Positions 7,362-43,072 of a DNA stretch of 64,000 nucleotides are shown piece by piece. Origin of the DNA: Lunularia cruciata (Eukaryota > Streptophyta > Marchantiopsida > Lunulariales > Lunulariaceae); NCBI GenBank assembly GCA_948567375.1, contig OX419756.1:73360333-73424332 (forward strand). The letters run 5' to 3'. The notes beneath the pieces are model-generated. The model made no database searches, had not been told where the DNA came from, and saw only the letters and a program-made list of their open reading frames with translations. A program made the translations under genes and the position numbers. Within the stretch, counting starts at the first letter, position 1. Every line of letters starts with the position of its first letter.

Positions 7362-7470
7362 TGTAATACCTTTAGCTAGACAGATTATCTAGAGGTGGAA
7401 ATTGGCCTGCTTGGTATTGTAGGGATTTTATATATGATGGTCTAAGAGATCATACAAAAGTGTCACCAGA

Positions 7471-13873: not shown

Positions 13874-13878
13874 GGTCT

Positions 13879-15114
13879 AGTGTAGACCATAACATACATT
13901 AAACTCCCAACAACACTAGCATAAGGAATATTTGACATTACTTTTCCTCCTCATTTGATGGATATTGCTCTGATGATATCCAAAAATGACTTGCCATTTG
14001 AGTGTTAATTGTTTTGCATTCTCCATGCTAAACCAAGCAAGTAATTTTTCCAAATATCTCCGTTGAGATATGCATAACTTTCTCTTGCTCCTGTCCTAGT
14101 GGATTTCAATCTCAAGCACCCTCTTTGAAGAACCCAAGTCCTTCATATCAAACTCCTTACCAAGTTGTGCTTTCAATTTCTCCACCTCAACCATATCTTC
14201 CACAACAATCAACATATCATCCACATATAGTACTAAGATGATTAAATCAAATACTCTAGGTCCATGTAGCTTCTTGAGGTACACAAAACAATCTGATTCA
14301 CTTCTATTATATCCATGCTTCAACATGAAAGCATCAAATTTCATGTACCAAAGTCTTGGACTTTGCTTTAGTCCATATAAAGACCGTTGTAACCTACAAA
14401 CCAGGTTCTGGTTCCTTGGTACTACAAAACCTTCAAGTTGATGCATGTAAGTATCCTCCTCCAATTCTCCATGTATAAAATCAGTTGTAACATCTAGTTG
14501 CTCCAACTCCAAGTTATGCAATGCAATTATTGCCAATAGTGCAGGAATTGAAGAGATTTTTACCAGTGGTGAAAAAATCTCATTGAAGTCAATACCTTCT
14601 TTTTGGCTATAACCCTTTGCTACATGCCTTGCTTTATATCAATCTCCACCAGATTTTGGAATATCCATCTACAACCAATTGCCTTCTTTACTATAGGTAA
14701 TTTCTCAAGTATCCAAGTTTGGTTTTTGGCCAAAGACTTCATCTCCTCTTCCATTGCACAATGCCACTTTTGACACTCTTGATCTTGCATTGTCTCTTCA
14801 TATGAAGAAGGCTCACCATTCTCTATAAGAAGAGCATAAGCTACAAATGAATCATCAAATCTCTTTGAAGGCCTTTTATCCCTATTTGGATATGTACAAT
14901 AATGAATCACTTCTGGACTTTTCTCTTCTAATGGTTCACTTGGTAGATCTACAAGAGGTGAGATGTCTTCATTTCCAAGATCAATATCTATCTTAACAAA
15001 ATTTGATTGAGTTTGTTTTTTCTTTTCATTTGCTATAGTATTAGTCTTCATCATGCTAGTCTCATCAAAAACTACATCCCTACTCACAACAGGACAAACT
15101 TTTTTGGATCCCAT
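13879..15114 (-). pseudogene. Copia C1 reverse transcriptase
   Basis: Reading on the minus strand: a linker with PSKRFDDSFVAYALL and the pre-RT helix (AMEEEMKSLAKNQTW, GCRWIF) at 15114-14620, then the polymerase core at 14536-14096 with QLDVTTDFIHGELEED, SLYGLKQSPRLWY and the catalytic LYVDDMLIV. The YVDD box is intact, but stops and a frameshift break the polyprotein. Confidence 0.9.
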
Positions 15115-20550: not shown

Positions 20551-20656
20551 AGGTCAGCTTTGCCAAGCCTTGGCAATGGCACTAAATCCTTTAACATATC
20601 AACAATGGAAGTTTTCCAACCTAAGGAATGCTTGTACTCTTCTCACATCCGTAAGA

Positions 20657-21250
20657 TGTAATACCATTAGCTAGACATATTATCTAGAGGTGAAATTTAC
20701 TTTAGTAATATCTAGAAGGATGTTATATATGATGGACTAAGTAGATCAAATAAATGTGTCACCAAAAGAGTACTTCCACTAATAAGGCATGAACCAAAAA
20801 CACCTTGAAAACTATAGAGCCAATTTTGGAAGCCTAAATGGAGGAATTAAGCCTTGAAAATGAAAGGATTCCTATTCTTTGGAAGAAGAGGTTTGCCTTC
20901 TCTCTCTCCCCCAGTACCTATTTGCCTCATTGAGACCTTTCTAATGATATCTCATCCATGCAATTCTAAGCTCCATATAAGAAGATTCCCTCTAGTGAAA
21001 CTTGTCTCACCAACTAGAATGACAAGAACCGACATGTCACCAATCTATAGAACTAATCTAAGGGTGGATCTTGCTGACATATCAACAATCCCTATATCTG
21101 ATCCAAGGGTGGAGCTTCCTTTGAAGGAAATTCCTTTTCTAAATAATAAAGACAATGTGCTTTGTTGGGACATTGGAGTATTAAGTGTGAAGCTTTGTGT
21201 TTTTTCTCTTGTATTTCTCTTGAAAGTTTTCTTATCCTTGGAATATTACA
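20657..21250 (+). mobile_element. Solo LTR, family T1, copy 2
   Basis: 594 bp, TGTAATACC...ATTACA with perfect 6-bp terminal inverted repeats. It is nested in the reverse-transcriptase region of G2: sequence on both sides aligns to 32280-32440 of G1. The flanks TAAGA and TACAC do not match, so the target duplication has been lost or the junction rearranged. Confidence 0.85.
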
Positions 21251-24200
21251 TACACTAAGTTATATGTGAAATAAACTCCACCTTGGTCCATTGAACACCA
21301 AGTCCATCAAGAATTTACACTTTTCAAGAATTAATTTGAGTCCATGAGATCTCAATCTCTCAAACACCTTCCACAAATATCTCTTGTGCTCCTCCATAGT
21401 AGTTTTATGGACCAAAATGTCATCAATATAGCACCAAGCAAACCAATCCTACTAGGATCATTTCTATGACTCTTTGGAACTTGGCAAGAGCATTCTTTTA
21501 CTCAAATATTAAGAACTTCCATTGATATAATACATCCTTGTTGTGATGATCAATAGCCCAAAATATTATATTGGACTTATCATCCTATTTGATTGGCATT
21601 ATGATATCTTGCTCAAAGATCCAAAGTACTAAAAACCTTTGCATACCCAATCACATCAAAGATCTCATGTGATGTAGGCATTGCATATTGATTAGCCCTA
21701 CTCTATTGGTTGATAGGATGGTAATCTCCACACCATCTGCCTATTTGTATGATTGCCATGCATACCCTTCTTGGTTGGCATCACTATAGTTGAATCATCC
21801 TCTCCAAATGAAATATCTATCAAAGTAACCTCAAAAAAGGTCTCTACTCTAGCTCTAAATTAAGACTCTCTTCATATTACTATATCTTTGGGGACTTCAA
21901 CTTTTTTTTGTATCACTAGTCAACTCAATCCACATACTATGTCTTTTTAGAGCACCCAAATTCTTCATATTGAAGGCAAAATGTGATAACCCATGAGCTA
22001 TAAAATAAGGGTGTTATGGGTTTAATAAATTAACAACTCGTATAGCTCCTCAAGAACCTCAAACCTCTTTGTCTTTCCTCTCATGTAAGCTTAGATCCAA
22101 TGTCTATCTCCCAAGTATCCTCTATAACTGATGTAGGAATGGAAGATGCACTAACTAGTTGCTAAGCCAAGCCCTTAGGAATAGTAATGTCATGCTCCTA
22201 ACCACTAGAGTCTCCAACCTTAGAGTAAAATTTTTCTTTGTTTTGGCTATAAGCTCCACATGTCCTCTAGTTGCATCCTATGTAGACCAATGGTGCAACC
22301 AAAGTAGACCAAGCTCACCTAGATGTACCCCAAGTATACCACTCTTACTAGTAGTCATTGATTGTATCCCACAAATACCATGCGCACTTGGTCTATCACC
22401 CTTAACGTGTGCTTGAATTGTCTTAATAGGTACAAAGCTCACAAATGTCTTAGAGGTGATACCTATCAAGCATATCCTACATTGCTCAACCAATCCAAGG
22501 CTCACAATCTAGGTCAAATAGTTTAGGTCCATAGCCTGATCTAACACCTAATGCTTGGATGCTTCTAACATTATTGAAATGGCGATAATACTAGTACAAA
22601 AACCCATCACTTGCTCTCTCTCTCATTGGCATTGGGCTCCACTAATTGCTACAATTATGAGTCCCAAACAAGTCCATGACCTCTCTCTCACAAAGCATGG
22701 GAGCTTTGGCACGTCATGAGTGTGTGTAAAGCGGCTTCGAGCTTGTACTACATTTCTAATCATTGCACCAAATGCATTTATCTATGTTATTCCACACATA
22801 AAGTCAAGGGCATCTTTATATCAAAAACATAAAATGTGGAAGCCTTAGTGCTTGAATTTAATCTCCTTTGAGCTATAGCCATGCTAGCCAATCTTTGCTC
22901 CAATTTCTCAATCCATGTAACCATGGTTGTATCACAAGCAAAGGCAAGTACCTCTACCATGTGTATGTCCTTTATTGCCACCTCTACCACCTCATCTTTC
23001 ATGACCTATAGCTCCTCTATCACTTGCCATAGTAGCCGTACTACTCCATGATTTTGAATGGAGGTCAAAACATCAATCACTAATATGACTAAATCTATGG
23101 CAATGATCACATTGCCTCTAAGATAGCTATGATACTCCAGAGGTATCATACCCACTACCTTGGAAGCACTCTCTCTTGTGGTGAGGTCCACTACAACTCT
23201 AACAAACAACTCTACCATCCATTGGCTATTTTTTGCTAAAAAATGAGGGTAAAGATCTAGGTGCACTAGATTCTCCATTTGCTCTATAATATCAAGGTTG
23301 TCCAGTCTACACTCAAGAGCCAACATTATGTGGGGCACTCTACTAGACTTTAGAAGAAGTAATATTTATAGATGAAATCATTCTACCAAATCAAGATTGA
23401 CTACTCTTTCCTCCACCATGCTGAGCTCAATGTGCTTAGTTGAACCAAAAACCACTACTAAGGTTGATGAGGTAGCCTACTATAACAACGTAGCATCACA
23501 TACTCTACATCATAACTCATTGTCCAATATCCCATATCAAAATTAGACTGCATATGCCTCAATAACTCCTTGAGTGAAACTAATCAACCATCTTTATATG
23601 TATATGCCTCACATAAGCTCTCTTTAGCCTTTTTGCTAGAACTTATATAAGCTCTTTAGCTTGTTAGTCCGCACTCCTTAGTAGTTCTATCTCAAGCATT
23701 AGAAGAACTCCACCATAGGATTATACCTTGGTATTGCATCACCTCTTATAGGAGTACCTCCACTCATAGTAGCACCATCACCAACTAGTGCACCTCCATT
23801 GGATACACCAATGCTAATAGAGTTAGAACTTGTAGGTATTGGGAATCTACTTGTAGAAATTGAGATCAAAGTGATGGAGATACTATTCATAAACTAATAT
23901 TGTCTCCATAGCTCAATCTTCTTCCAAGTGATCTTTCTTGAACTCATGGTAATCATCCATTGGTAGATCCGCAAGTGTTAGAACAACCCTTTTCATGCCA
24001 TGAAGGGTGTGAACAAAGTCAAGTTTTGCATTTATTGCAAATCATACCAACTATCAATTCCTTGATGAAATCATCCAACTCAATGGTATTGACTATACCA
24101 CCATAGTGCTTTGGGCCATTGGAGCTCTATAAATCTCGTCCATATCCCACAATATTAGTGTAGACCTACTAGTGTACTCTCAATTGAATCAATGCTCATG

Positions 24201-24429
24201 TCAAACTACCAAATACAATCAATCTCCTCCTTTATTGGGATTTGAGATATGGGTTGATACCAATCATCACTTTGTGTAAAACTCTTTTATACTACAATAA
24301 AATCTTCTCTAGAATTACCACAAAACTCTATTATGACAATGTATTCCAAATTACAACTATAACCACCAAGAACCACCCACTACTATAACTCTAACTATGA
24401 TAACTATAACAATATGAGTTTAGCAACAA

Positions 24430-24836
24430 AGTAAGTTAGGGCTAAAAAAGTAGCAAATAGGCCAAATTAACATAGAATATTCCAATAGTATCTAGAAAGC
24501 TTCTTGGGAAGCTTCCTAGCTTGCTTAGCTTACACCCCAAGTAAGTAGCTTCTAAAAGCTTCCAACTAGCTTAGCTTGCAAGCCAAGTAGGCGGCTTCTA
24601 GAAGGAAGCTTCTCGGTTAACTTCGCTTGCACTCCAAGAAAAAGGCTCAAGGAAACTTCTTGAGAGGCTTCTCAAGAGCCATGTATGCTCCTTATAAATA
24701 CCAAAACTGAAGATCATGCTAGGAATTCAAAGTGTACCAACATTCAAGTGTATCAACATTCAAGTGTACCAACATTCAAGTGTCCCAATGTGATATTCCA
24801 TTCTCCTATTTCTCTCCTCAATCGTGGTCTTTTAAA
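24430..24836 (-). mobile_element. T3-like LTR inserted in the G2 leader
   Basis: Absent from the aligned part of G1 (37560-37620). On the minus strand it starts with a decayed TGTAAAAGACC and shares about 240 bp with 20144-20365. It has a TATA-like GGTATTTATAAGG and three tandem copies of about 18 bp (ACTTGAATGTTGGTACAC type, near 24735-24785). The far border is approximate. Confidence 0.6.
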
Positions 24837-25264
24837 ATAACTACATTAAGAGGAAGAGCAACCTATAACTTGTCATCATAACATGCACTTTCACAATATG
24901 TAAGCAATCACTTCCTACCTCATTGGAGAGAAATATAGATAATCTAACAAATCATCACTCCAATCTCACTATTGAGAGCATGATAGAGCACCAACACTCT
25001 AAATATTAGTGCTTTCATACAAACACAGTGCAAAAATAAGAAGTATAAAATAGAGGGGTCCAATCACAAAAAATCTAAACAATAACACTCCATCTCACAA
25101 ATCAAAATTAAACTAACTTTATCACCATTTGATATTTGATATTTGATATAATAAGAGTATTTATCTACTCCTATGTTACCAAGAGCAATACAAATAAATG
25201 TCCTCTCCTAGCCAAAGCTACTTGAGTATATATGTATAAATCTCCCAGTCATTATGGAAACAAG

Positions 25265-25341
25265 TGAGGGTGGACTAATTGGCTAGGGTACACGTCTAAG
25301 AACCAAAAATTTGGAGTTCAAATCCTATTGTACATAATCTT
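25265..25341 (+). other. tRNA-like segment in G2 leader
   Basis: Counterpart of 38024-38097. It has an A-box-like GGACTAATTGGCTAGGG and a good B-box-like GAGTTCAAATCC. It lies antisense to the element. No convincing full cloverleaf, so it is not called as a tRNA gene. Confidence 0.5.
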
Positions 25342-26289
25342 GAAGGGGTGAGTGGATTTTACAAAACAACTATCAAAAACTCAAATAAGCTAGCTAGCTT
25401 CACACCAACAAGCTAGCTTGTTGGCCCTTCTAGGCCTTTGTAGCCTTTCTAACCCATAGTCCTATGCCTCCAAGCCTCTAAATGTTGAATTTTAGCCAAA
25501 TAAGATCTCTCTTCTTGCTAATTCAAACACTCTCTAAATCTAGCTTAATTTTACCAACTCAAGCACAAGGTAGGAGCAAACCTCTACCAAATTTGATTAA
25601 ACTTGGACAACCTCCAACTTTGGACAACCTTTGCTATAGTTGGTTGACTTCCAAATCTATTGCTAATTGTCAATCCAAATCCCTAATTTGAGGAGATGGG
25701 TTCTCAAATTTGCCTTCAAATTTTCAACTCAAAATCCTCAACTGCCAATTTGATCTCTTATTCTCAAATTGACCTCTTTGATCAACAAAACTGAACACCC
25801 ACTCCTCAATTTAACCTCAAATTCAACAAATTTTGGTAGTGCTTCCACATTGTTTGCCCCATTCCATACACAATCCATACAACTGAAACTTAATTCAAGT
25901 AATGATGATCACAAATACTAGCAACTTTACCAAGCTTGGAGATACCACCAACATCCTCAATTTCTACATCCAATTTTCCCTTGACTTCTTGACCATACTC
26001 AAGAACTTGGAGGCTTAACACGAGAGAAGTGAGCTCTTTAGAGCCTCACGTCAAAGGTATACCCATTTTCTTGACTTAGATCTATAGCTCTAATTGCATT
26101 ATTGATGGCTCTTTTGACAATGCAAATGGTGCAAGTGACAATAGGTCCAATAATGTAATTAATAGCCCTAACACAAAATCTAACCGCCACTAAGTAATTT
26201 CTAAGCAACTACTAATATAATTGTGACCACCAAGACTATCACCCCAACATCCAAGCAAATTAAATTAAAATTGCAAATGTCATGATAGT

Positions 26290-26690
26290 TTATATATAGA
26301 CCTTCAATTTGTTGATTTCATCTATGTAATTATGTATATTTACAACAAAATGCACAGAAAACACTTGATGTGACTACAATAGCACTATCTTGAGAGTTCA
26401 TGATGTTTTGCCTTCCAAAGTCCTCATGTTGGAAGGATGTAATGGTGTTTTTTTGGAAGGGTCATGTATGTAATTTTGCACCATGTCACCTCCTCAACAT
26501 TGATGGCACTATGGTCCTAAGCTTGATAGTTGTTTGTCCATGCTTGTGGTGTATATTATATGGCTCTTTTGGTGGAGTTGCTATTATATTGGTGTGTGAT
26601 AGTTATTTGAGAGGATGGCATATGGCATGTTTGACTCCTTCCTTCACGGTGGCTCTTCAAGTATACTGGCTATGTCTTAGATGTACTTGA
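26290..26690 (+). pseudogene. Gypsy G3: integrase C terminus with PHD-type finger
   Basis: A fragment of the same Gypsy family as G1, in opposite orientation, abutting the 5' LTR of G2. It covers the integrase C-terminal segment (NYVYLQQ near 26335), the APCHLLNIDGTM linker near 26480 and a PHD-like finger near 26535-26687. The second and fourth metal ligands are Tyr; the CD, RGWHMAC and CLRC positions are kept. The frame ends at TGA 26688-26690. One stop and a frameshift lie upstream. Confidence 0.8.
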
Positions 26691-26931
26691 TCTATAGCTA
26701 GTTTACTCTTTATGTGATATAGATTGAAAACAAATGACTAATGATGGAGGTCAATAGCACATGGTATCTTGATCTGTGTTCACCATAAGGTATATCACAT
26801 ACTTGGAGTTATAGCGACCTAATCTCTAGCTAGGGAGGCAATTATGGCACTCTAGAATTCATGTATGAGTTGTGCTTCTATAATGTATGATATTGACAAC
26901 AATGTATGTTGTATAGAAATGCATATATGCA

Positions 26932-27380
26932 TGATAATTGCTATGAAATTTGCAATGCCAAAGCTAGTTGCTTTGATGTTGGAGTGTTAGTCTTGGTAGT
27001 CACAATTATACCAATAATTGCTCAGACTACTTAATGACAGCCAGATTTTATAATAGTGCTACTAATCAAACCATTGGAGCTACCATTAGTTACACCATTA
27101 ATTACATTAATTATTTGCAATATTAGATGGACCATCAATGGCATTGTTAGGGTTGGAGTGCCAGGTCAAGTCCAAAAGGGTATGCCTCAAAGTGGAGCTC
27201 CAAAGAACTCACTTCTTTGATTTTGAGCCCATAAGCTCTTGGCTATGATAGATAGAGGTCAATAAGCATCACTTGGAATCTCTTAGCTAGAGTGTGCATG
27301 GCTTGATTGAGTAAGTGCACATTTTTTATAATATTGAGTTGAGTGATTGAGTTATGATCCGAGTTAAATGTGGGAATTGA
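26932..27380 (+). repeat. 3' LTR of Gypsy G3
   Basis: Aligns with the reverse complement of the G1 5' LTR (38791-39230), for instance over the CTCTTAGCTAGAGTG block near 27280. Between the polyprotein stop and this LTR are about 240 bp of non-coding DNA, also seen after the G1 stop. The right end is approximate. Confidence 0.7.
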
Positions 27381-29220
27381 ACTGATTGTTGTGGTACTTT
27401 GGAGTTCATGTATGAATTTTGTATGAGTTGTGCTTCTATTGTATGATGTTGTCAAAAATGTATGTTATGTAGCAGTATATACTATGTAGCAATGTGTATA
27501 TGATTGCTATACATGACACTACCAAGTATGATGCTCTCATTACATAATACAAGAATATTCTTCAAAAGCTAAGATTAACATGATGGAAAGGGATGAAAGT
27601 CCTTTATGAAGCAATTATTTCTAAGTCATCAAGATAGAATAGGTGTAATGGAAACCATTGATTCTCTAGCTGAATTATAGTTTCTCTACACAAATTTGTT
27701 CAAATATAAAAAGAAACTTAGGAAGAGGCAGCCAAAGCTCTCTGTTCAACATGAATCCAACTCTCACCTCCCTCTCTTTGTGTAGTCATAGAACTTAATT
27801 GGTGCAAATGCTTGTCTATCAAACAAAGTTCCTCAAGAGCAAGAAGGAGAATCACAATCACCATTGAGATTAGGAATAAGATGAAATTAAAGATTGGAAT
27901 CTACTAAATTCTATCAATCAATGCACCTTGCACATTTCATTATAAAACCCAAACTCATTGGCATGCTTATATAAAGTCCTATTCTTTGTCTTTTGTACCT
28001 GTGTAAGACTTGATTGATGCAAGCATTGCATGTCAAACAAAGTTCCAAATAGTTAACTTGAAAACTAATCCAAATAAAAGTAGAGACTTAATGCAATATG
28101 AGTTCCATGTACCCGGTGCAAGTAGTAGGTTAACATGTAACATTCTTATATGTTCTTATAGTTTGAGGTACTAAAGTTGCAGTTTGAGGCACTTTGTGTT
28201 ATCCACTAGAGCTTGATTGAATTCAATAAAGCAAAAAGCCACATAGAGGAATGCATGAGCAACCAAGTACCCTTCTTGGTTGTCCACGGAAGGTACCAAG
28301 GTGATATGACTCTTGGAACCTCAAAGCCTGACAAAATATGCCCTCCCTACCCCACAAACCAATGCCAAGGCTCAAAAGATTCCAAGGCTATTTTTATAAA
28401 TTTCAAATCATTTGGCATATGGTTACAATATATGCATTTGTCATGGGAATTTTTGCAAAATCCTCTAAATGTTATCATAAGTACTAATAAAATTAGAGTC
28501 ATTCTCATTATCTTCATATAGATAATTCAATTAACTGATAAATAATAATTTACTATATATATGTTTATATTTATCTACATGTAAAAATTTAATTATATTT
28601 AAACCATACAAAATTGAAAATTTAATCTATTTTTAAATCTATTCATTCTCTCTTATCCACTATATTTATTCTAATACATACCAAAATTGTCATAATTATT
28701 TATTTATTTTTATCATATTTGTTTTATATTTTCCTTCTTTGAGTACTTTAAAGTTTTAAAAAATATTATTTATGCTTATATATAATATTATGGATAAAAT
28801 AATTTATAAAAAAATTATAATGGTATAAATATTCTGAAATTAAAATTTTAAAAAATATAAAAAATGGTTAAATTAAATATAAAAATAAATGGTTACATTA
28901 AATCAAATTAAATCATTTAAATCCAATTTATTATTATGCAACTCAAGAATTTGTCTCTTTCATATATATAGATATACCAGCTAAGACATCTAAATTTCTT
29001 AATTGATATTTAGATGATATTTCTATTGATATATAATTGATGTTATTTAAGTGTCTTAATAAAATTATAAATCAAATAATAATATTTTTGCTGCAAAATT
29101 AGTAAATAAATATTAAACTATTGGATATTTTACAAAATCAATAAACATATCCAAATGTGTTAGCAACGAATATGCTTTAGATAGAATAAATTTAATGTGT
29201 GACTATTCTTAGTAGACTTT
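27380..29220. other. Unassigned, AT-rich from 28500
   Basis: The first 120 bp resemble the region between Gypsy polyprotein stop and 3' LTR (compare 26836-26935). After that nothing was recognised. 28500-29200 is extremely AT-rich and has no CpG to speak of. Confidence 0.5.
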
Positions 29221-29501
29221 GTTGTGCGTATATACATCGCTACACAATATACATCGCTACACAACATCTTACACTATAGAAGCACAATTCACACATAAGT
29301 CATACATAGACTCTAAAGTGCCACAATCGCCCTCTCCTTCTCTTGATTGGCGGTTAGGCCCTCTAACTCTAGATAGCCATCTACTCCAAGTATATGGTAT
29401 ATACTATGATGGGCAAAGATCAGAAGGCCGGGTGCTATATAGCCCCATCGTTAGTTGCCTATCTACAATCTATACCATATAAAGAATGAACTAGCTATAG
29501 G

Positions 29502-30144
29502 TCAAGTACATCTAGGACATAACCACTACCCCTGAGGAGCCACCATGAGGGGAGGATTCATACATGCCATATGTCATCCTCTCGAATAACTATCATGCAC
29601 TAGCATAGTAGCAGCTCCACCAAAAGAGCTACATAACGTACACCTAAAGCATGCACATACAAGTGCCAATCTTGGGTCCATAGTACCATCAATGTTTAGG
29701 AAGTGATAGGGTGCACAATTGCGCATATGATCCTTCCAAACAACACCATCACGTCCTTCTAACACAAGGACTCCACATGGCAAAACCTCATGCACTCTCA
29801 AGATAGTGTGGCCTATCAAAACATCAAGTGTCATTGGTGCCATCTGTTGTAGATATACATAGTCACCTGGATGAATCAACGGATTGAGGATCTATAACCT
29901 CCTCATCAAATGGTAGCATAGAGTAAGGTATCTCTATGCTAAGCAATCACCAAGTTCTCAAAGGCCTTCGGCATCACTTTGAAAGATCTCTACCCATTGA
30001 GAACATGCGCTCATCCATACATCTTGATCATCCAAGTCCAAAACTACCGTAGCATCTCAATGAATGGCTACAAGTAAATCTAGATCTCATCCATAGAGTA
30101 GAAAGTAAGGAGAGAAGGATGCTAAAGAGAATTGCCGACTGAAC
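29502..30144 (-). pseudogene. G1 integrase C terminus fused to PHD-type zinc finger
   Basis: Continues the integrase after the T2 insertion. Seen in order (minus): decayed linker, HPGDYVYLQQMAP (29873-29835), HTILRVHEVLPCGVLVLEGR, the NCAPYHFLNIDGTMDP linker, then a finger whose spacing is CxxC, 11 residues, CDxC-like with the two ligands replaced by His and Tyr, RG, a TGA where Trp is expected, HMAC, 14 positions including one TAG, CPRC and the stop. This is the PHD-finger pattern, a domain that usually reads histone H3 tails. It occupies the place where chromoviruses carry a chromodomain. Role in targeting integration is inference. Confidence 0.8.
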
Positions 30145-30821
30145 TGTGAGCCGGCCTGTCTCTCACTCAGGATGAACCTCTGATGGCTATTATGGTAGCG
30201 CACCATGGACTAAGAAGGCAAGGAACCCAACTCCATCATACTCCTCCAAGGCTAACACTCCAAGACTCAAGACATTGCTCACTAGAGAACTCAATGAGAG
30301 AGATAGTTGCAAATGAAAGGATGATGAGTACCTCCTCACCCCTTGTTTATATACTTGTGAAATAGTTAAGTACCAAAGTTACTAATTACTGGGGTAACTC
30401 AAAAAGTTAAGTTAAGTCAAAAAGTAGAAAGGAATCTCCATTCACATGTGCATATTCCCCTAAGCATGTGATCTTATCTTGACCCAACCACTAAGTCAAG
30501 GATTCCTTCACATGAGCGATCTTTGGACTATAGAAGAATCCAAAACAAAAAGGCTTGCGGGCCCAAGAGTTTTCAACTCTTTCCTCAAAGCCAAATACTT
30601 AGGAATAATACCAAGTCAACACACTAGAATCCAAAATAGTGGTGCTCATCTTTTCCACTTCCTCTAAAGTAAAGTCCCCTCTATCTTAGCTATGACTAAC
30701 TCTAGCTAATCATGACTAATGTAGAACCATCCTTTATCTCTATATAAATAATATATCTCAAGTACTTGTAATACCAAGCTAAATATCACAATACCACACA
30801 CATGCACTAATGGGTGTTACA
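30145..30821 (-). mobile_element. Solo LTR, family T2, copy B
   Basis: 677 bp, closely similar to 13184-13873, starting TGTAACACC at 30821 and ending CTCACA at 30145. It splits the G1 integrase at a conserved GYRFS-like motif. GAAC lies on both sides (30141-30144 and 30822-30825), a 4-bp candidate target duplication. Confidence 0.87.
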
Positions 30822-31430
30822 GAACCGGTAGCCCATGGCCAACCAAGGTAATTGGAGATCCTAATCTCCCAAGTGTCCTCTCTGCAAACCATACTTTTGC
30901 AATCCTCTCTTCAACATCTAAACCACTCTCTCTTCTAAGCCATCTTCCTCAAGGTGATCTTGGGATGTAGTACAATGATCAATCAAAGCCTTGGCACACA
31001 AGACCTGAAACTCCTCCAAGAACTCTATACCCTAATTAGTCAAAACCTCAGTTGGTGCACCAAAATGACTAAGAACTCGATCCAGGAATGAGTAAGTTGT
31101 CCCTTCACTAAACTTGTCAAGATGTGCCACCAACTCAATCCACTTGGAGAACTGCTCCACAATCACCAAAACATACCAATGATGTCTCACAGTCAGCGGT
31201 AAAGGTCTAGCAAAGTCTAAACTCTAGCGGTAACCCAATCCCATGATAGGTAATGGGTGTAATTGTGGCAAAGGAGCATTGAATGATGCTCTAACTTGGT
31301 CACAAACCACACATCTGGTAAAATAATTGTTGTGCCTTGGTCTGCATACCGTGCCACCAATAATGACTCTAGAGTAAGCTATATGCATGCTTTACTCCAA
31401 AATGTCTTAGCTCTTGATGAGCATGACGGA
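30822..31430 (-). pseudogene. G1 integrase, zinc-binding and core domains
   Basis: The HHCC zinc finger is intact: HQELRH ... CVVC (31415-31293, minus). The core follows with HHWYVLVIVEQFSKWIELVAH and FGAPTEVLTN. Stops occur in several places. The frame leads into the T2 insertion at LAMGYRF. Confidence 0.83.
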
Positions 31431-31849
31431 TCAATTGTGGTCTCTAAGATGGAAGTGGTACTACTCGCACTCTACCATCCTCCCATACACGCCAAAGGTG
31501 TCATCCCTCCAATTTGAATTGTCTGGCTCACTTAAGGATACAATCTCTCTCCTTGGCCCCAATTGTGCCACCCACAAGACCAGTGCAAAGATAGTCCATC
31601 AGTAAGATGTCATCATGAATGTCTCGCTAAACTGTACCAATATCTTCACTCTTTGGATATGTGACCTCAATAACTCCTCCTATATGCATTGAGAGAGATA
31701 ACACCAAAGCCTCAAAAAATGTATAAAGAAAGGCAGATGCATGCAAACCTAGAACTATCTCCTCATCTGTCTCACCATGCCAACGTGCTCCGGTCTGATC
31801 TTGCGGATGGGACATGGGTTTCTACTCAACCCATTTGTATCATGGTTCA

Positions 31850-32280
31850 CCACTTTGGGTTTGAATAATCGTGAAATCATACTCTTGTAAAATCAGAGCC
31901 CATCATGCAAGCTTCCCTGAAAGCTTGTTGGACTCCATCAACCACTTCAGCGGCTGATGATTAGTGATGAGAGTGAAAAGGTTACCAAATAGGTAACATC
32001 AAAAATGTGTTATTGCCCAAACTGCTACCAAGCACTCTCCCTCATATGAACTATACTTCACCTCCGGTGAATTGTTGGGATGACTAGCATAGGCCACCAC
32101 AAACTTCTTCCCCTCATCATCATGTTGGGTGAGCATTGCTCCAAGCCCCAACATACTCCAATTAGTATGAACTTGAAATGGTCGTCCTTTGATTGGTCTC
32201 CTCAAAATAGGAGCAGATGTCAACCTCTCCTTGAGCTCTACAAAAGCTCTCTCCTGCTCATCTCCCCAACACCACTCCTA
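31850..32280 (-). pseudogene. G1 RNase H
   Basis: The 32223-31999 frame has HTNWSMLGLGAMLTQ, VVAYASHPNNSPEVKYSSYE and ECLVAVWAITHF, the Ty3/Gypsy RNase H start; it continues with decayed TDHQPLKWL-like sequence near 31950. Confidence 0.85.
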
Positions 32281-32427
32281 TGTAAGCTTGGTCAGCTTTG
32301 TCAAGGCCTTGGCAATGGCACTAAATCCTCTAACATAGTGGCAGTAAAAGTTTGCCAACCCAAGGAATGCTTGCACTTTGCTCACATCCATGGGCCAAGG
32401 AATACGTGCAATATCTTCCACCTTGGT

Positions 32428-32965
32428 TTACTGAACACCAAGTCCTCCAGAGTAGATAGTGTGACCCAAATACTCAACTTGCTCATAGAAGAACCTACAA
32501 TTCCCAAGATGTAATTTGAGTCCATGAGATCTCAACCTCTCAAACACCTCCAACAATTGTCTCTCATGCTCTTCCACAATAGTGTTATAGACTAAAATGT
32601 CATCAATATAGTACCAAGCAAAATCCAATCTAGCTAGTATCCTATCCATGACCCTTTGGAACTCGGCAAGAGCATTCTTCAACCCAAACAATAAGAACCT
32701 CCACTGATATAACACATCTTTTCCGTGAGGATCAATAGCCAAGAATTTTGTCTTGGACTTGTCCTCCTCTTTGATTGGCAATTGATGATATCCTACTTGA
32801 AGATCCAAAATATTGAAGACCTTTGCATGCCCAATTGCATCAAAAATCTCCTCTTGTGTAAGCATGGCATACCGATCAGCCCTAATCTATTGGTTGATAG
32901 GACGGTAATTTTCACACATCCACCTATTTGTGTAGTTGCAATGCATATCCTTCTGGGTTGGCATC
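32428..32965 (-). pseudogene. G1 reverse transcriptase
   Basis: The 32865-32428 frame carries LDLQVGYHQLPIKEED, KTKFLAIDPHG, the FLLFGLKNALAEFQRVMD block, the catalytic YIDDILVY and the HGLKLHLGNCRFF/VEYLGH thumb. Sequence upstream to about 32965 extends the fingers. The catalytic box is intact, but the N-terminal part is interrupted. Confidence 0.9.
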
Positions 32966-35229
32966 ACTATAGCTAATACATACTCTTTATGTGAGATCTC
33001 CACCAAACCAACCTCAAAAATTTACTCCAACTTTGAATCAATGTCTTCTCCATGTCACTATAGCAATAAGGATGTCAAAAAACTGGTGTATTGCTGGTCA
33101 GCTCAATCCATATACTAGGTCCTTTTAGATCATCCAAACCCTTCATACTAAAGGCAAAATAACTTGTGTAGCTCCTCAAGAACCTCCAAACTCTCAGTCT
33201 TTCCTCTCCTATAAACTTGGGTCCAAGAGTTTTGGCTCCCAAGTATCCTCTATAACTATAGTAGGAGTGGAAGACGTGCTAACTGGTTGCTACACTGGCC
33301 CCTTGGGAGCAATAGTGTCATGCCCTCGACTACTAGAGGTCCCAATCTTTTTGTGAAAAAGCTCCCTCTGATCTGGCTGCAAGATCTATACGTCCTCTAG
33401 CTGCATCCCAAATAGACCAAGGATGTAATCCAAGTAGACCATGCTCACTTGGATTGACTCCAAGTAGACCACTCTCCCTAATAGCCACTAGATGCATCCC
33501 AATAATACCTTGTCCACTTGGTCCATTTCCCCCAGCATGTACCTAAATCATCTTGATAGGCACAAGGCTCACAAGTGTCAGAGTGGTGATGCCTATCAAG
33601 CACATCCCATGTTGCTCTGCCAAGCCAAGGCTCACAATCTAGGTCAAATAGTTCAAGTCCATAGCTTGACCTAACACCTGACGCTCGGATGCCTCTAACA
33701 CTACTAAAATAGAGGTAATACTAGTGCAAAAACCCATTACCCACTCTCTCTCATCAACATTGGGCTCCACCAACTGCTGTAACTATGAGTCACAAACCAA
33801 TCCAAGTCCTCCCTCTTGAAAAGCATGAGAGCTTGGGAAACTCATGAGTGTGGGAAATGTAGCTCTAGGCTGTCCAACTAGGTTCATTATTGCCATAGGT
33901 GACCTATCAGCCACTACCACCATCTGAGACTGATGCCCAACATCCAAGATGTCATGAACAAGGATGTGGTCAAGTCATTGAATCCCATCATAAGCACATT
34001 GTAAAACCTCCCTAGGTAAGAGGTTTGTCTACCAAAGACAAAGACGATGAGCTCGTGATCCTACTTTGGCTGCATCTAACAATACAACAAGTCCCATCCA
34101 AGAATGGATTTGATGTGTACTTGCCACCACTCGGATACAAGAATCACCCATCACAGGAATGTTCTCAAGAATGTAAGCTAGAGAAACAGATTGATGAACT
34201 TGGAGATGTTGTAGTATCCGTAACATCTCCCAAAACACACCAGAATAAGGATCTTGAAGACCCAAACCTTGGCCAACACGTGTATGTCCCTAACATGGCC
34301 ATCCAAAAATCACCAAGTGAATAGGCCTATGTCTTTCCAAGTCATGCGCCCATAGTAAGGAAATGTCTACTAGTAGGGCCTTTTGGTAACCTTTGACTAC
34401 TGACATCAATAATAACTCATGATATTGGTAGGCCAAGTGTGCCACATGATGTAGAGAGACTTGTCTAGCAGTCTCATCTCTCTCCACATAGAAGTAACAT
34501 TGTACTTGTATGCCTAGCTGTAATATTGCAGCTAGTCTGATGCTCATCCCATCGAACAACTCCAATAGACATACTCTCTCTACTAGATACTACCAAGAAA
34601 TGAATGTGGTATCCAGAGGTATCAAAGTAATCAACTATGGAGGCTCATCCTCACACTCATCTCCTGATGGTAAGAAGGCTCTACTCCAAGCCTATTGCAC
34701 CGACTGATCTGCATGCTATTGCAATGCCTCCTCTGAACTCCACAATGGAACATCCAAGGTGGATGGAACAATCCTACTTGTACTCCAAATTTGAGTGATC
34801 TCCTCTGGTACTTGAGTATCCTATGCATGGGCATTCCCCTCCAACAAGTCACCAGGCCAAGTAACTACACCACTAAAAGCTGAAACTGATGTTGCCATGG
34901 TCTTGGACTATAGTGAGCCAAGACTGCCACTACTAAAGCGTATTGGTAGGCAACATACCGGTCCCTCACTAGACTACCAACCTGGTCTATAGGAGGTTGT
35001 CTCCTCCCAATAGTCAATGTTGAAACCCATGGGGGTATAACATTGCTCCTCCAACTAGCACATCATATGACTCAGCTATTGTCGCAATAGCTTGAGCTCT
35101 CACCACCAAGCTATCAGTCGGATGATCAAGCTTAACCTAGATAACAAGCTCTCCACGTGTGATGTATTATGTTGAACCACCACCTAAAGATGTTTGGATC
35201 TAAAATGGATGCCTCTCTACATCGGTCTT

Positions 35230-35330
35230 TTGTAACTCCAGACCGACACTATAGCCTTCCCCAACATAAGGGGTTGTGCACCAAAGTCTAACAAGACTCT
35301 CTATGGTGTATAGACCTTCCCCAAAGGTCC
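35230..35330 (-). pseudogene. G1 aspartic protease remnant
   Basis: Minus-strand RVLLDFGAQPLMLGKA near 35310-35260 matches the retroviral-type aspartic protease start LLDSGA, with Ser changed to Phe. The rest is degraded. Confidence 0.6.
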
Positions 35331-35899
35331 CACCAAATGAAAAATCCCCCTTTGGTTATCCAATAGGACAACACTAGGTGTGACCTGCACTCTCTCAAAG
35401 GCCAATCTGGCTGGTAACTCCTCCAATGTAGCCGTTATTGTTTGCCATAAACCACTGGTTGTTGAACAGATCCAATGCTCCTCAACCAAGCCAACTCCAC
35501 TATCAACCACCTCTACTCTAGTAGTAGGAACCACATTATCCCTACTCTCACAAAGCGTGGCAACCAACCAAAAAATTGGGGTTGGGTCAATTCCTAATAT
35601 AAACATATCATTGGCTAAAAATAAAGGGCACCGCATAATCAACTAGGCCGCCCCTAACATCATACTAGACTCAATTTGTGTAGTAGCAGGTGGCTGACTA
35701 GCAGGTAGTATATCATGCACTCCATCACCACCTACCACACTTGCATTGGGATGTCTAAGAGCTATAGATCTTATCTGCAATGCCTCAGATAGCATGAAAG
35801 ATTGGGGAAGTCTGACCTGTCTCCCAACCTCTCTTCTTTGTGGGTCCAACTCCATTAATGCTCCTCTAGGCTCTGGAGCACATATTGCATTCCTAGTCA

Positions 35900-37519
35900 T
35901 TGCTATAGATACATCCACCTATGTTGCTCCGCTCTATTGCCATCATATGAGGTGGAAGCCTTAGCACCCAAAGTTTTCACAATCTGATCTCCTTTGAGCA
36001 ATGACCATACTAGCCAATCTCTACTCCAACTGCTCAATCCGAGTAACCATATCTATATTAGAAATAAAGGCAAGTATTGCACCTCTACTAGGTATAGATC
36101 CTCTACCACCACCTCTACCACCTTGTCCTCCATCAATTGAAGCTCCTCTACTACCTTCCATAGTAGCCCTACCACTCCGTAATTCTAAGTGTATGTCAAA
36201 GCACCGGTCACTAGTGTGACCAAATCTATGGTAATGCTCACACTGCCTCTATGCTAGCTGTAATGGTATTAGTTCTACTGCCCTAAGTACACTCTCTCCT
36301 ATGGTGAGGTCCACCACAAGTCCAACAAGCAACACCACTACTCACTGGCTGATGCTGCCCCAAAAATGAAGGTAAGGGTCTAGCTCCACTAGGCCTCCAC
36401 TTGCTCCATAAGATCTGGATTATTCACCATATCCTTGAAAACCAACTGGGCGTGATGCACTCTAGAAAAAGTAACAATTGTGGATGAGGTCTCTCTACCA
36501 AATCCCGATGTCACCACTCTCTCTTCCACCATGTTGAGCTCAATACGTTAAGCTAAACCAAAGACCACTGCCAAAGTAGGCAAAGTAGCCTATAACAACG
36601 TAGCATCACGAACTCTACATTGCAACTCCTTGTCCAATATCCCATACCAAAATTGGATTGTTTGGGCCTTAGTAACTCCTTGAGTGAAATTGATCAACCG
36701 CCTCATGCAAGTGTATGCCTCACATAGGCTCTTTCCAACCTCCCGCTAGAACTCTTGCAAGTTCCTCAGCTTGTCAATCCGCACTCCCTGGTAGTTTTGC
36801 CTCAAACATCGGAAGAACTCAACCATGGGGTTAAACCCCAATACCACACCACCTCCTATAGTAGTACCTCCACTCATAGTAGCACTATCTCCAGCTAGTG
36901 CACCTCCACTAGCTCCACCAACACTACTTGAGCTAGAACTTGTGGGTATAGCCAATCTACTCTTGGCAACTAAGCCTGACGTGATGGAGACATAGTTTGG
37001 AGACCAATATTGTCTTTATAACTCAATCTCCTCCAAATGAGCTCTCTTAAACTCATGATAGTCATCCATCGATGGACCCTCCAAATGTTGAAACAACCCT
37101 TTCCATGCCATGAAAGGTGTAAACAAAGTTGAGTTTCACATCTGTTGTAGATCATACCAACTATCAAACTCTTGGATGAAATCATCCAACTTAATGGTAC
37201 CCACTATACCAAAGTAATGCCTATGGCCTTTGGAGGCCCCATAAATCTTGTTCATATCCCACAACAATGGTGCAGACACACCAAGTGCACTCTCAATTGA
37301 ATCAACTCCTATGTCAAACTCCAACTTAGAGTCAATCCCCTTCCTCATTGGGACCAAAGATACAAGCTGATACCAAGCGCTACTCCAAGTAATGTAATAC
37401 CCACTATGTACTACAAGACTAACTCCTTTGGAATCCCCAAAGAACTCCGTCGTAACAAAGTAATCACAACTACAACCACAAACCGGAACCACAAGTACCT
37501 TACCAAGTGCCAACACCAA
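35900..37519 (-). pseudogene. G1 gag with zinc knuckle
   Basis: Frames at 37519-37136, 37185-36970 and 36955-36746 and beyond form a decayed gag. Recognisable: WYDLQQM/MAWKGLFQH, a Ser/Gly/Ala-rich segment (SSSSSVGGASGGALAG), RRLINFTQGVTKAQTIQFWY near 36690-36630, and a CCHC knuckle CWTCGGPHHRREC near 36335-36297. Several stops. Confidence 0.75.
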
Positions 37520-37524
37520 CTAAG

Positions 37525-37567
37525 CACCACCAAGTGCCAATATCCACAAAATTGGCACTTGGTGGTG
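37525..37567. repeat. Perfect 17-bp hairpin near the G1 gag start
   Basis: Arms 37525-37541 and 37551-37567 are exact reverse complements around ATCCACAAA. It lies immediately upstream (minus strand) of the gag frame. Confidence 0.92.
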
Positions 37568-38097: not shown

Positions 38098-38790
38098 TAG
38101 CAGGATGGGCAGATTTTGCCAAACAATGACCAAGATTTACTCTAAACTAGCTAGCTTCACGCCAACAAGATGGCTTGTTGGGCCTTCATAGCCTCTCATA
38201 GCCCATAGCCCTATGCCTCAAAGCCTCTAAATGCCCAAATGAGGCCTTTCTTCTTACCACTTTGAACCTCTGCCAACTTTGAGACTCTTCTAAATCTAGC
38301 AAAACTCATCCAAATCCAAATCAAAATCTGACATAAACTCCATCAAAAATCTGATGTAAACCCTAAATTTGGTCCACCGCCAAATCCTCTACTAACTCTC
38401 CACCCAAGCCAAACTAAATTAACAAGTTTTTCCAAATCACAAATTCACAAGAATAGGTTCCCAACTCCACCTTCAATTTTACTTTTTGAGCCCAACTTGC
38501 AACAAATTGGTCCTGCCTTCACCTTTTGAGCTCAAAATTACAACCACTATTCAAAAATTGCTCATTCTTTGCTCAAAAACTGCTCCTTCATTGCTCAAAA
38601 ACTGGCCAATGCTTCCACACACCGTCTGCCTTACTGCCAAATCTGCATCAAGCAACGAGCTTTTGCACACCAATGAAAATTTGAACTTTGATTGAGCTAC
38701 CAACGATCCATTGCACTTGGAGATACCACCAACACCTGTAGTTTCTACACCCAATTTTCCCTAGACTTCACTTCTCTGATGTAATCAGAT

Positions 38791-39230
38791 TGTTTACAAC
38801 TCTCAAATCAACTCAACTTAGATGAGTACTTGATTTGTCACTCTAGATTGCCAACAACTAGGCACTAATTACAGTCAAACCACACCCACTCTAGCTAAGA
38901 GAATCAAGGTGATGCTCACCGGCCTCTGTCCACCATAGCCAAGAACTCAAAGCCTCAACATCGGAGAAGTGAGCTCCTTGGAGTTGCACTTTGAAAGTAT
39001 ACCCTTGGACTTGAGCTAGGTCTAAAATCCTAATGGTCTTGCTGATGGCGCACTCGACGGTGCAAATGGTACAAAGTGACGATGGGAGCCCCACCGTGAA
39101 GTCAGTACCCCAAACACAAAATCTGACCGTCAGAAAGTAGTCTATGGGAAAGTGTTGAATACCACTAACTACTATTGCTACAACTCCAATGTACAAGCAA
39201 ATTAGATGCAACACTACAAATGGGGTGACA
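38791..39230 (-). repeat. 5' LTR of Gypsy G1
   Basis: Begins (minus) TGTCACCCC at 39230. The G2 and G3 LTRs align with it. The proposed end TTGTAAACA at 38791 rests on where G3 similarity stops, so it is approximate. Confidence 0.6.
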
Positions 39231-41160
39231 ACTTATAAGATGTAAGTATTCATTTGTCAAAAGTTTAATATTTGATACAAAATATTTTAAACATATATAT
39301 ATTGTATCCAAACATACTTATCTAATTCATTACATACCAAGTCAACAGATAAAGATGACACTTTTTAGCTCTTGTTTTTTTGTTCAAGTAGCTACTTCAA
39401 GTTGCAATGACTTTTTATTATCATCCATCTAATATCACTAGACCTTCATATTATGATGCAAATAGCTAATAATGATTGAGATCATATAATCAAAAATAAA
39501 TACAAGTATGGGGGGTTAACATCATTGATTTAATAAATACATATTTAATATATTTTTTATAAATATATAAAGATGTGTTCCATTTATATGTTCCACAAAC
39601 TCCAACTCCAACTCCAATTTGAGTGTGCAAACCTTCAATTAAGTTTTAAACCAAAATGTTAGAATAATTACAGCTAAAAAATTGAAGGATAACCATAACC
39701 ATCTAAGTTATTAGCATTCAATATATATAGCTAGTGATGGTTATGAAGTGATTATAAAGAACCTATGATGTGATTTAAGTATTAATTCTGCATAATTTAG
39801 AATCTGATTTTAGTATACAATTCTTTCTTGTTATGGTTTCCAATATTTAAGAAACATTTTTTTTTAGTAATAATATCTACTTATGAGAAATAATTTTTTA
39901 ATGATATTCCTCTTATCTCTAAGATTATTCATATTTTACAGAAGAAAATTATAATTCTACAAAGACTTAATATATCTAGCTAGAACACTTCATATTTAAT
40001 TTTAAGTTTCTTGACCTGTGCTAAAAACGATTTCCAACCGAGTTAAATTACTAACCTTAACTTTTCAAGATAATTATTGTATATCATTAAAATAATTCAT
40101 GATGTAGAAGGTGGTATTTGTTTCTGTATAGAACATGATTAGTTATAATAAACCTTAAATATATATAAATTTTTTAAAATATTGTAATATAAACAAGGTT
40201 CCTTTTATACTGAATATTTTGACTTGATTCAAAATGTATTCAATAGAAGATAACTAAATTTATAAATAAATAAATAAATAAATAAATAAAAACATTCATT
40301 TTTATATTAATGTATTAATTAACTTTTAGGTTATCTTTTTAAGCACTCGATGAATTCAGTAAAATATCATCAAACATTCAAATCTATGACTCTAAATAAT
40401 AATAAGAGAAACTTTTACCTTGTTAAAAGAAAAAACCGATTCCTTTACGTCCTAAGGATGTAAGTAGATGTATACTAAGAAATATGATTACCGATGATAA
40501 TAAAGAGTATAACACTAAATATGATAATATTTTTTTAAATTTCAAGGGTTAATTGAATAGACTGAACTCAGTATTTTATCTAAACATATAAAATTGTAAG
40601 CTTTTTCCTCATTTATCTATAAGGTGATTTTATAAATATATAAGGAGCATTCAAGTGGCGTCTCTTATTATACTTCACTTTAATGTAATTCACGTATACA
40701 AGTTTAATATTTATAATTAATCAAATCATTAACTTAAATAGATATGGAGACATGGTTACTTAGCGTTTATTAATCATGATTAGATGATAATTATAATTAT
40801 GATTATGATGAGAGCCTTTTCGCTTAACATGGGTAAAGCATGTTTATATGCTTCGATTTATACCCAAGTGCTCTCACGAACATATGAAAACACCAGTAAT
40901 AGTAATAAATTATATATTTATAAATAAATAAATAAGAGTGATAAAATGGAGAAGCGCATTTCTAACTAAATTACATAAATTATTGTAAGTAAGTCTCAAT
41001 TATGATATTAGAATTATGCTCATTTTCTAATTCTATTGATAGTTATTCATGTGTATTCTTGTCGTGTACGTGTTTGGAAAGAATATCCCTCTTATAAGGA
41101 TATCCTTAGATAAGAATATCTTTCACAAATATCCTTAAGAAAGCGGAAAAGACAAAAGTT
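39231..41160. other. AT-rich intergenic DNA
   Basis: No coding similarity; CpG nearly absent until about 41150, where the PTPA upstream region begins. It includes a (TAAA)n tract of about 27 bp at 40264-40290. Confidence 0.55.
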
Positions 41161-41232: not shown

Positions 41233-41751
41233 TGATGACCGCTCCCACGCTGGCGATAGATAATTCAAAGACTGCAGTCGAAGGGGAGGGACTGTCGAAA
41301 CTCGCAATGAACACCAGTGGAACTTTAGGTTTAAGGAAGGAATGCGAGCGAGTCGGCCGTGAAGGAATGGGAAAGGGAACGAAGGGAATCGAAGGAGCAC
41401 ATCTGGTTCGATGAGTAGTGAGGATGCAATTACGGAATAGCACTGTTGCCGCTGATGCTTGGACTCTTGAGATAATCAGATTCTACTAGGAGTCGGAGTG
41501 TTGGCGAACGGACTTAAACTTTTCAGTAGAGAAGGTCGTATCGTTGATCTTGGACGACGAATTCCCACGGAATGCTGATTTGAGCGGGAATCGCAGTTTG
41601 CAGATTTTGTTCTAGTGGCCTGATTGCAGGAAATTAGGGATTGGAGGATGGTTTTGAAGTTATTTAGGGGGAGCTTTCATTGTGGTGATGGTTGAGTCGA
41701 AGCGCGCAGTTTGAGCGAGGAAATTCGGAGGTGGAAGTGTTGGAAACACAG

Positions 41752-41888
<137 letters not shown>

Positions 41889-41959
41889 GTGAACGAGAGG
41901 ATGAATGTCGGGGAGCCCCGAGCTCGTCGACGAAGGAAGTAGGGGAAGAACCAGGGATC

Positions 41960-43072
41960 ATGGATCGTTATGGAAATAGCAATCAAGCTGGAGGCGGAGG
42001 AGGTGGTTACAGTGCAGTTGGAGGACTTGGAGCTTGGCCAGGTGCACCTTTTAGCGGGAGAATCAGGGCACCATCTCCTTCTCCCGTGCAAACCATGCCG
42101 CCGGGATCCGCCATGACTTTGGCAGCGCTGGCTCCAGTTCCGCAAGCTCGACCAGTTCCCGTTCTACAGCCTCCCTATGCCTTTGTGGTACCCCGCAAGA
42201 GAATCAATTCGCCCGCGGACATTGAAAGGTTTCATCAATCCGAAGCGGGAAAGACTTTCTTAGGCTTCATCGTAGGGCTTAGTGATTCTGTTAAGGGAAT
42301 GAGGCTCTCTGATTACTGCAGGGAGTCTCCTCTCATTATGTCTATAGTAGGAATTTTGGGGAGGATGAGTGAGTGGGTGGATGAAATACCCCCGAGGCAG
42401 CAGCCTGCGAGGTATGGAAATCTAGCTTTTAGGGACTGGCAAGCTCGGCTGGAACTTCAGGGTCCCAATCTCGTTAAGCAGATTCTTCCGGAGCCTCTTC
42501 AAGAGGCGGTAGTGGAGTTGTTTCCATATTTTCAAGATAGCTTCGGTAATGCAACTAGAATAGATTACGGCACTGGCCACGAGGTGAATTTTGCCGCATG
42601 GTTGTTTTGCTTGGCACGTCTAGGGTTGATCAAGCAGGACGATTATCAAGCAGTCGTTCTCCGCGTGTTTGTGCAATATCTCGATCTTTTGAGGAAGCTT
42701 CAGACAACGTATTGGCTCGAACCTGCTGGTTCACATGGTGTTTGGGGTCTGGATGACTACCATTTCCTGCCTTTCATATTCGGGTCAGCACAGTTGGTGG
42801 ATCACAAGTACATGAAGCCGAAGTCCATACATAACCAAGATATCCTTGACCACTTCTCGAAGGAGTATCTGTACCTTGGGTGCATTGAATTTGTGAAGAA
42901 GGTGAAGAAAGGCCCTTTGGCAGAACACTCACCCATGATCGATGATATTAGTGGGGTTCCCTCGTGGTCAAAGGTAAATGGGGGCATGCTTAAAATGTTC
43001 AAAGCAGAGGTACTTGAGAAAGTGCCTATTATGCAACATTTTATTTTTGGATCGCTCATACCATGGTCTTAG
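41960..43072 (+). CDS. PTPA: Serine/threonine-protein phosphatase 2A activator (PTPA)
   Basis: PP2A chaperone and peptidyl-prolyl isomerase that helps load metal and activate the PP2A catalytic subunit in cytosol and nucleus. From Met at 41960 the protein has 370 residues, against about 390 in Arabidopsis. An N-terminal Gly/Pro-rich extension (1-75) precedes the PTPA fold (about 80-370). Family signatures: RINSPADIERFHQSEAGKTF (81-100), PPRQQPARYGN (144-154), the catalytic loop FGNATRIDYGTGHE (195-208) and VWGLDDYHFLPFIFGSAQL (261-279). The same frame is open upstream to 41711 through the (GA)n tract, which would add an Arg-Glu run; MDRYGNSN is preferred because it begins non-repetitive coding sequence. 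No intron is present. It converges on TIC236. Confidence 0.95.
   Translation: MDRYGNSNQAGGGGGGYSAVGGLGAWPGAPFSGRIRAPSPSPVQTMPPGSAMTLAALAPVPQARPVPVLQPPYAFVVPRKRINSPADIERFHQSEAGKTFLGFIVGLSDSVKGMRLSDYCRESPLIMSIVGILGRMSEWVDEIPPRQQPARYGNLAFRDWQARLELQGPNLVKQILPEPLQEAVVELFPYFQDSFGNATRIDYGTGHEVNFAAWLFCLARLGLIKQDDYQAVVLRVFVQYLDLLRKLQTTYWLEPAGSHGVWGLDDYHFLPFIFGSAQLVDHKYMKPKSIHNQDILDHFSKEYLYLGCIEFVKKVKKGPLAEHSPMIDDISGVPSWSKVNGGMLKMFKAEVLEKVPIMQHFIFGSLIPWS

Follow-up and report, generated by a model that had tools for sequence, protein, structure and literature searches.

The finger at the end of a decayed integrase

Does a plant Ty3/Gypsy polyprotein end in a zinc finger of the PHD type and, if it does, what would such a finger do there? 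The question arises in a stretch of 64,000 nucleotides from Lunularia cruciata (the window), where an initial annotation held that the integrase C terminus of one element copy, G1, runs directly into a PHD-type finger and then stops. The features concerned are as follows.

29502–29504, minus strand: Pol stop codon of G1, one residue past the last zinc ligand
29508–29642, minus strand: PHD finger of G1, with ligands 3 and 4 mutated and two internal stops
29643–30144, minus strand: C-terminal part of the G1 integrase leading into the PHD finger, frameshifted farther upstream
30145–30821, minus strand: TG..CA insert of 677 bp, solo-LTR-like and of another family, within the G1 integrase; duplication GTTC

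The final part of the integrase and the finger do share a single frame. Read on the minus strand from 29642 to 29508, the finger has the arrangement CTLC-x11-HDSY-x4-HMAC-x14-CPRC, followed by one Thr and the stop, and the translation of the Pol end closes with FRCTLCSSFGGAATMLVHDSYSRG, stop, HMACMNPPLMVAPQG, stop, WLCPRCT, stop. With the internal stops entered as X, the PHD profile PF00628 matches over its full length (1–47 of 47; E = 8.1e-7, 29.4 bits against a Pfam cut-off of 24). Six of the eight zinc ligands are left, ligand 3 having changed from C to H and ligand 4 from C to Y. This is a genuine PHD finger within a dead, decayed copy. The PHD spacing that had been read from the letters stands. 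The CDx(C) and RGWH elements of that reading belong to the unbroken form, which occurs in other copies of the family. Position 30144, the end point in the annotation, is the border of the 677-bp insert that splits the G1 integrase. A relative of this solo-LTR-like repeat lies in the opposite orientation at 13184–13877 of the window.

Taken as a whole, G1 spans 10 kb and is a decayed member of a Ty3/Gypsy lineage that is very abundant. Its other parts are listed here.

30822–33289, minus strand: reverse transcriptase (RT), RNase H (RH) and integrase (IN) core
33284–33292, minus strand: TAG CAA CCA, an instance of the leaky-stop signal UAG CAR YYA, in frame at the junction of the two ORFs
33290–37540, minus strand: first ORF, with Gag zinc knuckles, protease and DNMT3-like methyltransferase
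about 34550–33530 (estimated), minus strand: DNMT3-like methyltransferase
38783–39230, minus strand: repeat A (A1), the 5' end
29220–29327, minus strand: repeat B, the 3' end

A 458-codon frame (41696–43072, plus strand), some 2.5 kb away from the G1 5' end, holds a complete PTPA domain (PF03095, E = 9.5e-127), with a long GA repeat ahead of the domain. The window also carries a Copia-type reverse transcriptase fragment (14096–14638, minus strand; PF07727, E = 2.6e-49) and an 868-codon open frame with no Pfam match at E 0.01 (56149–58755, minus strand).

The finger within the L. cruciata family

We searched the 565.8-Mb assembly (74 contigs) with the G1 tail and scored the best 150 of 8842 first-look candidates, all of which matched at E ≤ 3.8e-47. 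With a query that began at the integrase core and took in the rest of Pol, every one of the 115 scored matches extended to position 352–353 of 353, through the finger; these 115 are the best-scored part of 33546 first-look candidates, a sample that may lack fingerless copies if these are worn or distant. The frame is exactly 1037 codons long, with no stop inside the match, in 20 of the 115. Growth of the L. cruciata genome (580-Mb assembly) by Ty3/Gypsy bursts has been reported (PMC9985172).

Forty tail stretches were collected which, given two identities (L016 = L040 and L024 = L039), represent 38 distinct copies including that of the window. All eight ligands of the C4HC3 set are present in 22 of them, and retention of ligands 1 to 8 runs 38, 38, 36, 23, 38, 38, 38 and 38. 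Loss of ligand 4 (15 of 38) is partly a selection effect, because L001–L030 were ranked against a query having Tyr there. Among L031–L040, chosen by frame length, nine of ten have the complete set; the exception, L031, lost ligand 4 despite a full 1037-codon frame. Two genome copies, L031 and L032, were scanned with PF00628, and both exceed the Pfam threshold.

A second tail in the window, G3, had been annotated as sharing the same end, and it does: it matches Pol residues 907–1037 of L032 at 53.7%, and is decayed as well.

26295–26690, plus strand: G3 integrase C terminus and PHD finger (finger about 26550–26684)
26861–27482, plus strand: G3 repeat B1, a stretch at the expected place of A2, and B2
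20552–26232, minus strand: 5' part of a family copy (A1 to RT), orientation opposite to the G3 tail
22164–22156, minus strand: TAG CAA CTA leaky-stop signal (counted as G3), within the 20552–26232 copy

No match to A2 was found in the G3 stretch between B1 and B2. Used as a genome query, the G3 tail found itself and, at 62–72%, another 149 matches (150 of 7931 first-look candidates scored). Three of these, compared by eye (C1:44735730, C12:29078391 and C8:21574675), are copies also found with the G1 tail; a separate subfamily behind G3 was rejected on this comparison, and we take G3 for a decayed copy belonging to the G1 family.

Assignment to Ty3/Gypsy, also part of the initial reading, is borne out by the RT, whose best match among solved structures is Ty3 (E = 4.7e-100), and by the domain order that characterizes the group, RT–RH–IN with a DDE core (rve), in L031, L032 and L048, the last being a relative from outside this genome. 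A GPY/F motif was not recognizable in the integrase C terminus by eye. Neither the chromodomain (PF00385) nor a tyrosine recombinase gave a match at E ≤ 0.1 in these three elements; a chromodomain misread as a PHD finger was rejected on the same searches. NCBIfam profiles gave weak transposase, RT and dcm-type matches, all below their cut-offs.

Conservation in a distant relative

In GTDB contigs the search pattern matched 28 times, and one relative was confirmed: L048 (CADCWO010000201.1, 9285 bp), a metagenome-derived contig binned as an uncultured Synechococcales cyanobacterium. Because such a retrotransposon is unlikely in a cyanobacterium, we take L048 as eukaryotic: it is probably a eukaryotic-type contig in a cyanobacterial bin, contaminating the GTDB species genome. 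Its isolate code presumably points to desert soil crust. IMG/VR yielded no relatives by Pol protein or by DNMT, and an alignment of Pol gave 179 stretches that fit a pattern, none of which was confirmed. L048 has identical 127-base ends and closes as a circle of 9158, which would be expected from assembly of an A-coding-B-A-B element or from a real circle.

The Pol proteins of L048 and L032 are 65% identical from end to end. The L048 finger matches PF00628 at E = 4.3e-10 and lacks none of the eight ligands; 29 of its 45 residues are identical in L032 (dN 0.41; dS not computable, owing to saturation), and the fourfold third positions of the two elements agree at 54 of 201, about chance (the sum over ten segments, with some residues left out). 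Positions between ligands are conserved too, in GAATML, RGWHMAC and PPL. In conservation the finger falls below the integrase core (82 of 101 identical) and comes close to the RT (115 of 170), with the RH–IN linker at 50 of 113. Since ligands and other residues are retained at synonymous saturation, the finger appears to have been kept by selection over a long time.

A captured host exon that drifts without function would accord with the loss of a ligand in the window copy and 15 others of the 38. We nevertheless hold this to be very improbable, given the eight of eight ligands and 29 residues common to L032 and L048 and the passage of all 115 scored matches through the finger. A chance fusion or one-copy artefact was rejected from the family counts and the L048 finger, in keeping with the annotation's view of the finger as a family trait. 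Relatives without the Cys/His pattern and absence of a profile match had been named at the outset as counter-evidence; the relatives keep the pattern and match PF00628.

A methyltransferase upstream of a leaky-stop signal

Three features go beyond the initial annotation: a cytosine methyltransferase, a leaky stop of the form UAG CAR YYA and repeats laid out as A-coding-B-A-B. In L032, a D-S-G protease motif and two zinc knuckles can be recognized by eye in the ORF upstream of Pol (L032:839–4267); in L048, an aspartyl protease match (E = 7.8e-4) lies below its Pfam cut-off. The cytosine methyltransferase profile PF00145 matches across L031, L032 and L048 with E values of 1.5e-7, 7.3e-7 and 6.8e-12 (the first in L032, the last in L048), and among solved structures the domain comes nearest to DNMT3A chains (best E = 3.7e-7). 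The motifs GWPCQGH and ENVP are common to the L032 and L048 domains. The upstream ORF encodes a DNMT3-like cytosine methyltransferase. The domain is stop-free in seven of ten copies (L036 being aligned over 328 of 345 residues only) and broken in L037, L038 and L040.

The two ORFs lie in one frame and are divided by UAG CAR YYA in all 13 copies inspected. The signal is spelled TAG CAG CCA in ten of ten genome copies, with CAA CCA after the TAG in G1, CAA CTA in G3 and CAA TCA in L048. Outside the window it was placed in two elements.

L032:4265–4273: leaky-stop signal
L048:3489–3497: leaky-stop signal

This context has been reported as essential for readthrough of the tobacco mosaic virus (TMV) stop in plants (PMC2754532). 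That one degenerate motif occurs in four spellings speaks for selection on readthrough.

Repeats, ends and a putative self-priming site

The two identical LTRs usual in Ty3/Gypsy are not what this family has. A repeat A of about 449 bp stands at the element start and a repeat B of about 108 bp at its end, the 3' side being B-A-B, so that the layout is A-coding-B-A-B. Upstream stretches were taken for seven of the ten long copies; six are complete, and the seventh (L033/L043) is rearranged and was excluded from the analysis of ends. In all six complete copies no B lies beside A1, the ends are TG..CA, and a 4-bp duplication flanks the element (CTTG, GAGG, AGTT, AAGG, GCCC and CCAC). Comparing A1 with A2 within each copy gives 3 to 11 differences over about 447 bases, plus a 9-base gap in one pair. 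G1 has a target duplication, AAGT (39231–39234 and 29216–29219), and a single B, with no A2 and no second B; its 3' end is what recombination between B repeats would leave.

Directly after A1, each of the six complete copies (L041, L042 and L044–L047) has 15–16 nucleotides complementary to about positions 258–272 of A, and the longest complement in 300 shuffles of the L042 stretch was 10. The decayed G1 has only nine complementary bases, at another offset. A 13-base complement in L048 (7239–7251 with 7415–7427) is an unshuffled observation in a region where the end of A is not independently placed and other inverted pairs lie nearby. In self-priming of the Tf1 type, the primer site after the 5' repeat is complementary to the element's own 5' RNA, and the complement after A1 looks like a putative site of this kind. 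If so, B + A would act as the functional LTR, of which the integrated form would be a circular permutation. The B/A junction of L048 is CACGACAGCTGTCACG (7048–7063); the same 16 letters are found in four of the six complete copies (L031, L032, L036 and L037), and L034 and L035 are each one letter off.

Possible role of the finger

The closest solved relatives of the finger among the matches listed are fingers of CHD4, KMT2C/D, PHF12, KDM5A/B, PHF21A, DPF and UHRF1, and plant ATXR5 also appears in the list; no ING or BPTF finger is among the best 60 of 97 and 60 of 82 PDB matches. Several of these relatives bind H3 without K4 methylation. As the family finger is nearer CHD4, KDM5, PHF21A, KMT2C/D and UHRF1 than readers of K4me3 such as ING or BPTF, silent (K4-unmethylated) chromatin is a first guess at the target, with K4-unmethylated H3 as the possible ligand. 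The guess is a weak one, because the acidic residues that several K4me0 readers (AIRE, PHF21A) have just before the first Cys are absent here. Readers of K4me3 have a Trp two residues before the ligand His; the family finger has Gly at this cage position. A single-sequence AlphaFold model of the L048 integrase C terminus and finger was discarded (mean pLDDT 36.9).

PHD folds are also used for other contacts, and with the K4me0 acidic residues and the K4me3 cage Trp both missing, the finger might instead be a zinc module for integrase multimerization, nucleic acid or another host protein. We regard this as unlikely: the 60 listed of 97 PDB matches are chromatin or nuclear proteins by name, many of these neighbours bind H3, and the residues between ligands are held in L048.

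Judging from sequence, we lean somewhat towards a histone-reading role as the explanation that best covers the whole. A minority of ribosomes would read through the UAG, giving little integrase–PHD and much Gag–DNMT. On the integrase of the pre-integration complex, the finger would bind the histone H3 tail and tether insertion to nucleosomes of a given state, much as the chromodomain does in chromoviruses, and the DNMT would probably methylate the new cDNA.

A different division of labour would have the finger serve the DNMT in place of the integrase, reader and writer being cut from one polyprotein and acting together on the cDNA or on the chromatin that surrounds new copies, so that inserts come to resemble host DNA. 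DNMT3A, whose ADD domain works with the catalytic domain, offers the model; the methyltransferase here is DNMT3-like, and L031, L032 and L048, the three elements scanned, each carry both modules. DNMTs of Symbiodinium DIRS-type elements are reported to methylate CG de novo in yeast, but that of a Klebsormidium element did not, a result that its authors called inconclusive (PMC5890265). Because the PHD finger and the DNMT also lie far apart, in separate ORFs with a stop between them, we consider this arrangement improbable.

Returning to the integrase-tethering reading, a fuller and more speculative version of it, which we doubt, would see in this two-genome lineage a split kit: the PHD finger would pick nucleosomes by H3 state, the Gag-borne DNMT3 would methylate the cDNA, each copy would thereby settle in silent chromatin and become part of it, and the DDE integrase would use the palindromic B/A junction of a circle. 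Such use of the circular junction would explain how DIRS-like repeats go with retrovirus-like ends.

One abundant element carrying both PHD and DNMT may read as well as write host chromatin, and a DNMT in the same element would link target choice to silencing. Chromatin reading would not be unique to the PHD lineage, since chromodomain matches abound in the same genome (150 of 150 scored were over the cut-off, from 13449 first-look candidates). For one of these (C10:26473191, within L044), the 5' end of a PHD copy is about 2.8 kb away. A second, unrelated reader at the chromodomain position would offer a natural setting in which to compare two targeting systems within the same nucleus.

Comparison with known systems

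Chromoviruses, in which a chromatin-reading chromodomain is fused to the integrase C terminus, are the textbook case of target choice through chromatin. They share the RT–RH–IN order and have duplications of 4 or 5 bp (PMC6317226). The family described here has a PHD finger in place of the chromodomain, split direct repeats in place of two LTRs, and a DNMT in addition. According to the accessible text of that plant survey, eight domain types are named for its 8453 Ty3/gypsy and 5410 copia elements, none of them PHD or methyltransferase, and elements of unexpected domain order were dropped (PMC6317226). The A-coding-B-A-B repeats may explain an escape from surveys based on paired LTRs.

DIRS elements use a tyrosine recombinase and make no target duplication. 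The present family differs from them in its DDE integrase, its 4-bp target duplication and the lack of a tyrosine recombinase match. DIRS-like retrotransposons with tyrosine recombinases are likewise described as A-coding-B-A-B, some with methyltransferases (PMC5890265). The nearest published relative, compared by description, is KnitGypsy-Dnmt3 of Klebsormidium nitens (de Mendoza et al. 2018, PMC5890265), likewise a Gypsy-type element with a Dnmt3-related methyltransferase, and the sole fitting paper that we found on DNMT-bearing Gypsy in plants within the accessible open-licence PMC literature. The paper equates its repeats with those of DIRS, for which it gives A-coding-B-A-B, the layout found here as well. 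Its DNMT lies in the Pol ORF (PMC5890265), whereas ours is upstream of an in-frame UAG that is possibly read through. Nowhere does the main text of that paper mention PHD, and the set of domains is described there as typical of Gypsy (PMC5890265). A PHD finger may be present there and unnamed.

A PHD finger in a retrotransposon is familiar from CR1-type elements, yet these are non-LTR. Algal database entries combining integrase and PHD may exist. In the open-licence PMC literature, as far as its accessible text goes, we found no description of a PHD finger in a Ty3/Gypsy element, in agreement with the initial annotation, which gave none for plants; the sole mention of PHD in PMC3286476 is a host gene name. 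A precedent is Ginger1-9_HM of Hydra, whose transposase resembles a Gypsy integrase and carries a PHD motif in its C-terminal part; unlike the present family, it is a DNA transposon, has terminal inverted repeats and includes a Ulp1 protease domain (PMC2836005). Measured against the accessible literature, a DNMT-bearing Gypsy element with DIRS-like repeats and a PHD motif behind a Gypsy-like integrase, as in Ginger1-9_HM, were already known; a PHD finger on a Ty3/Gypsy integrase appears to be new.
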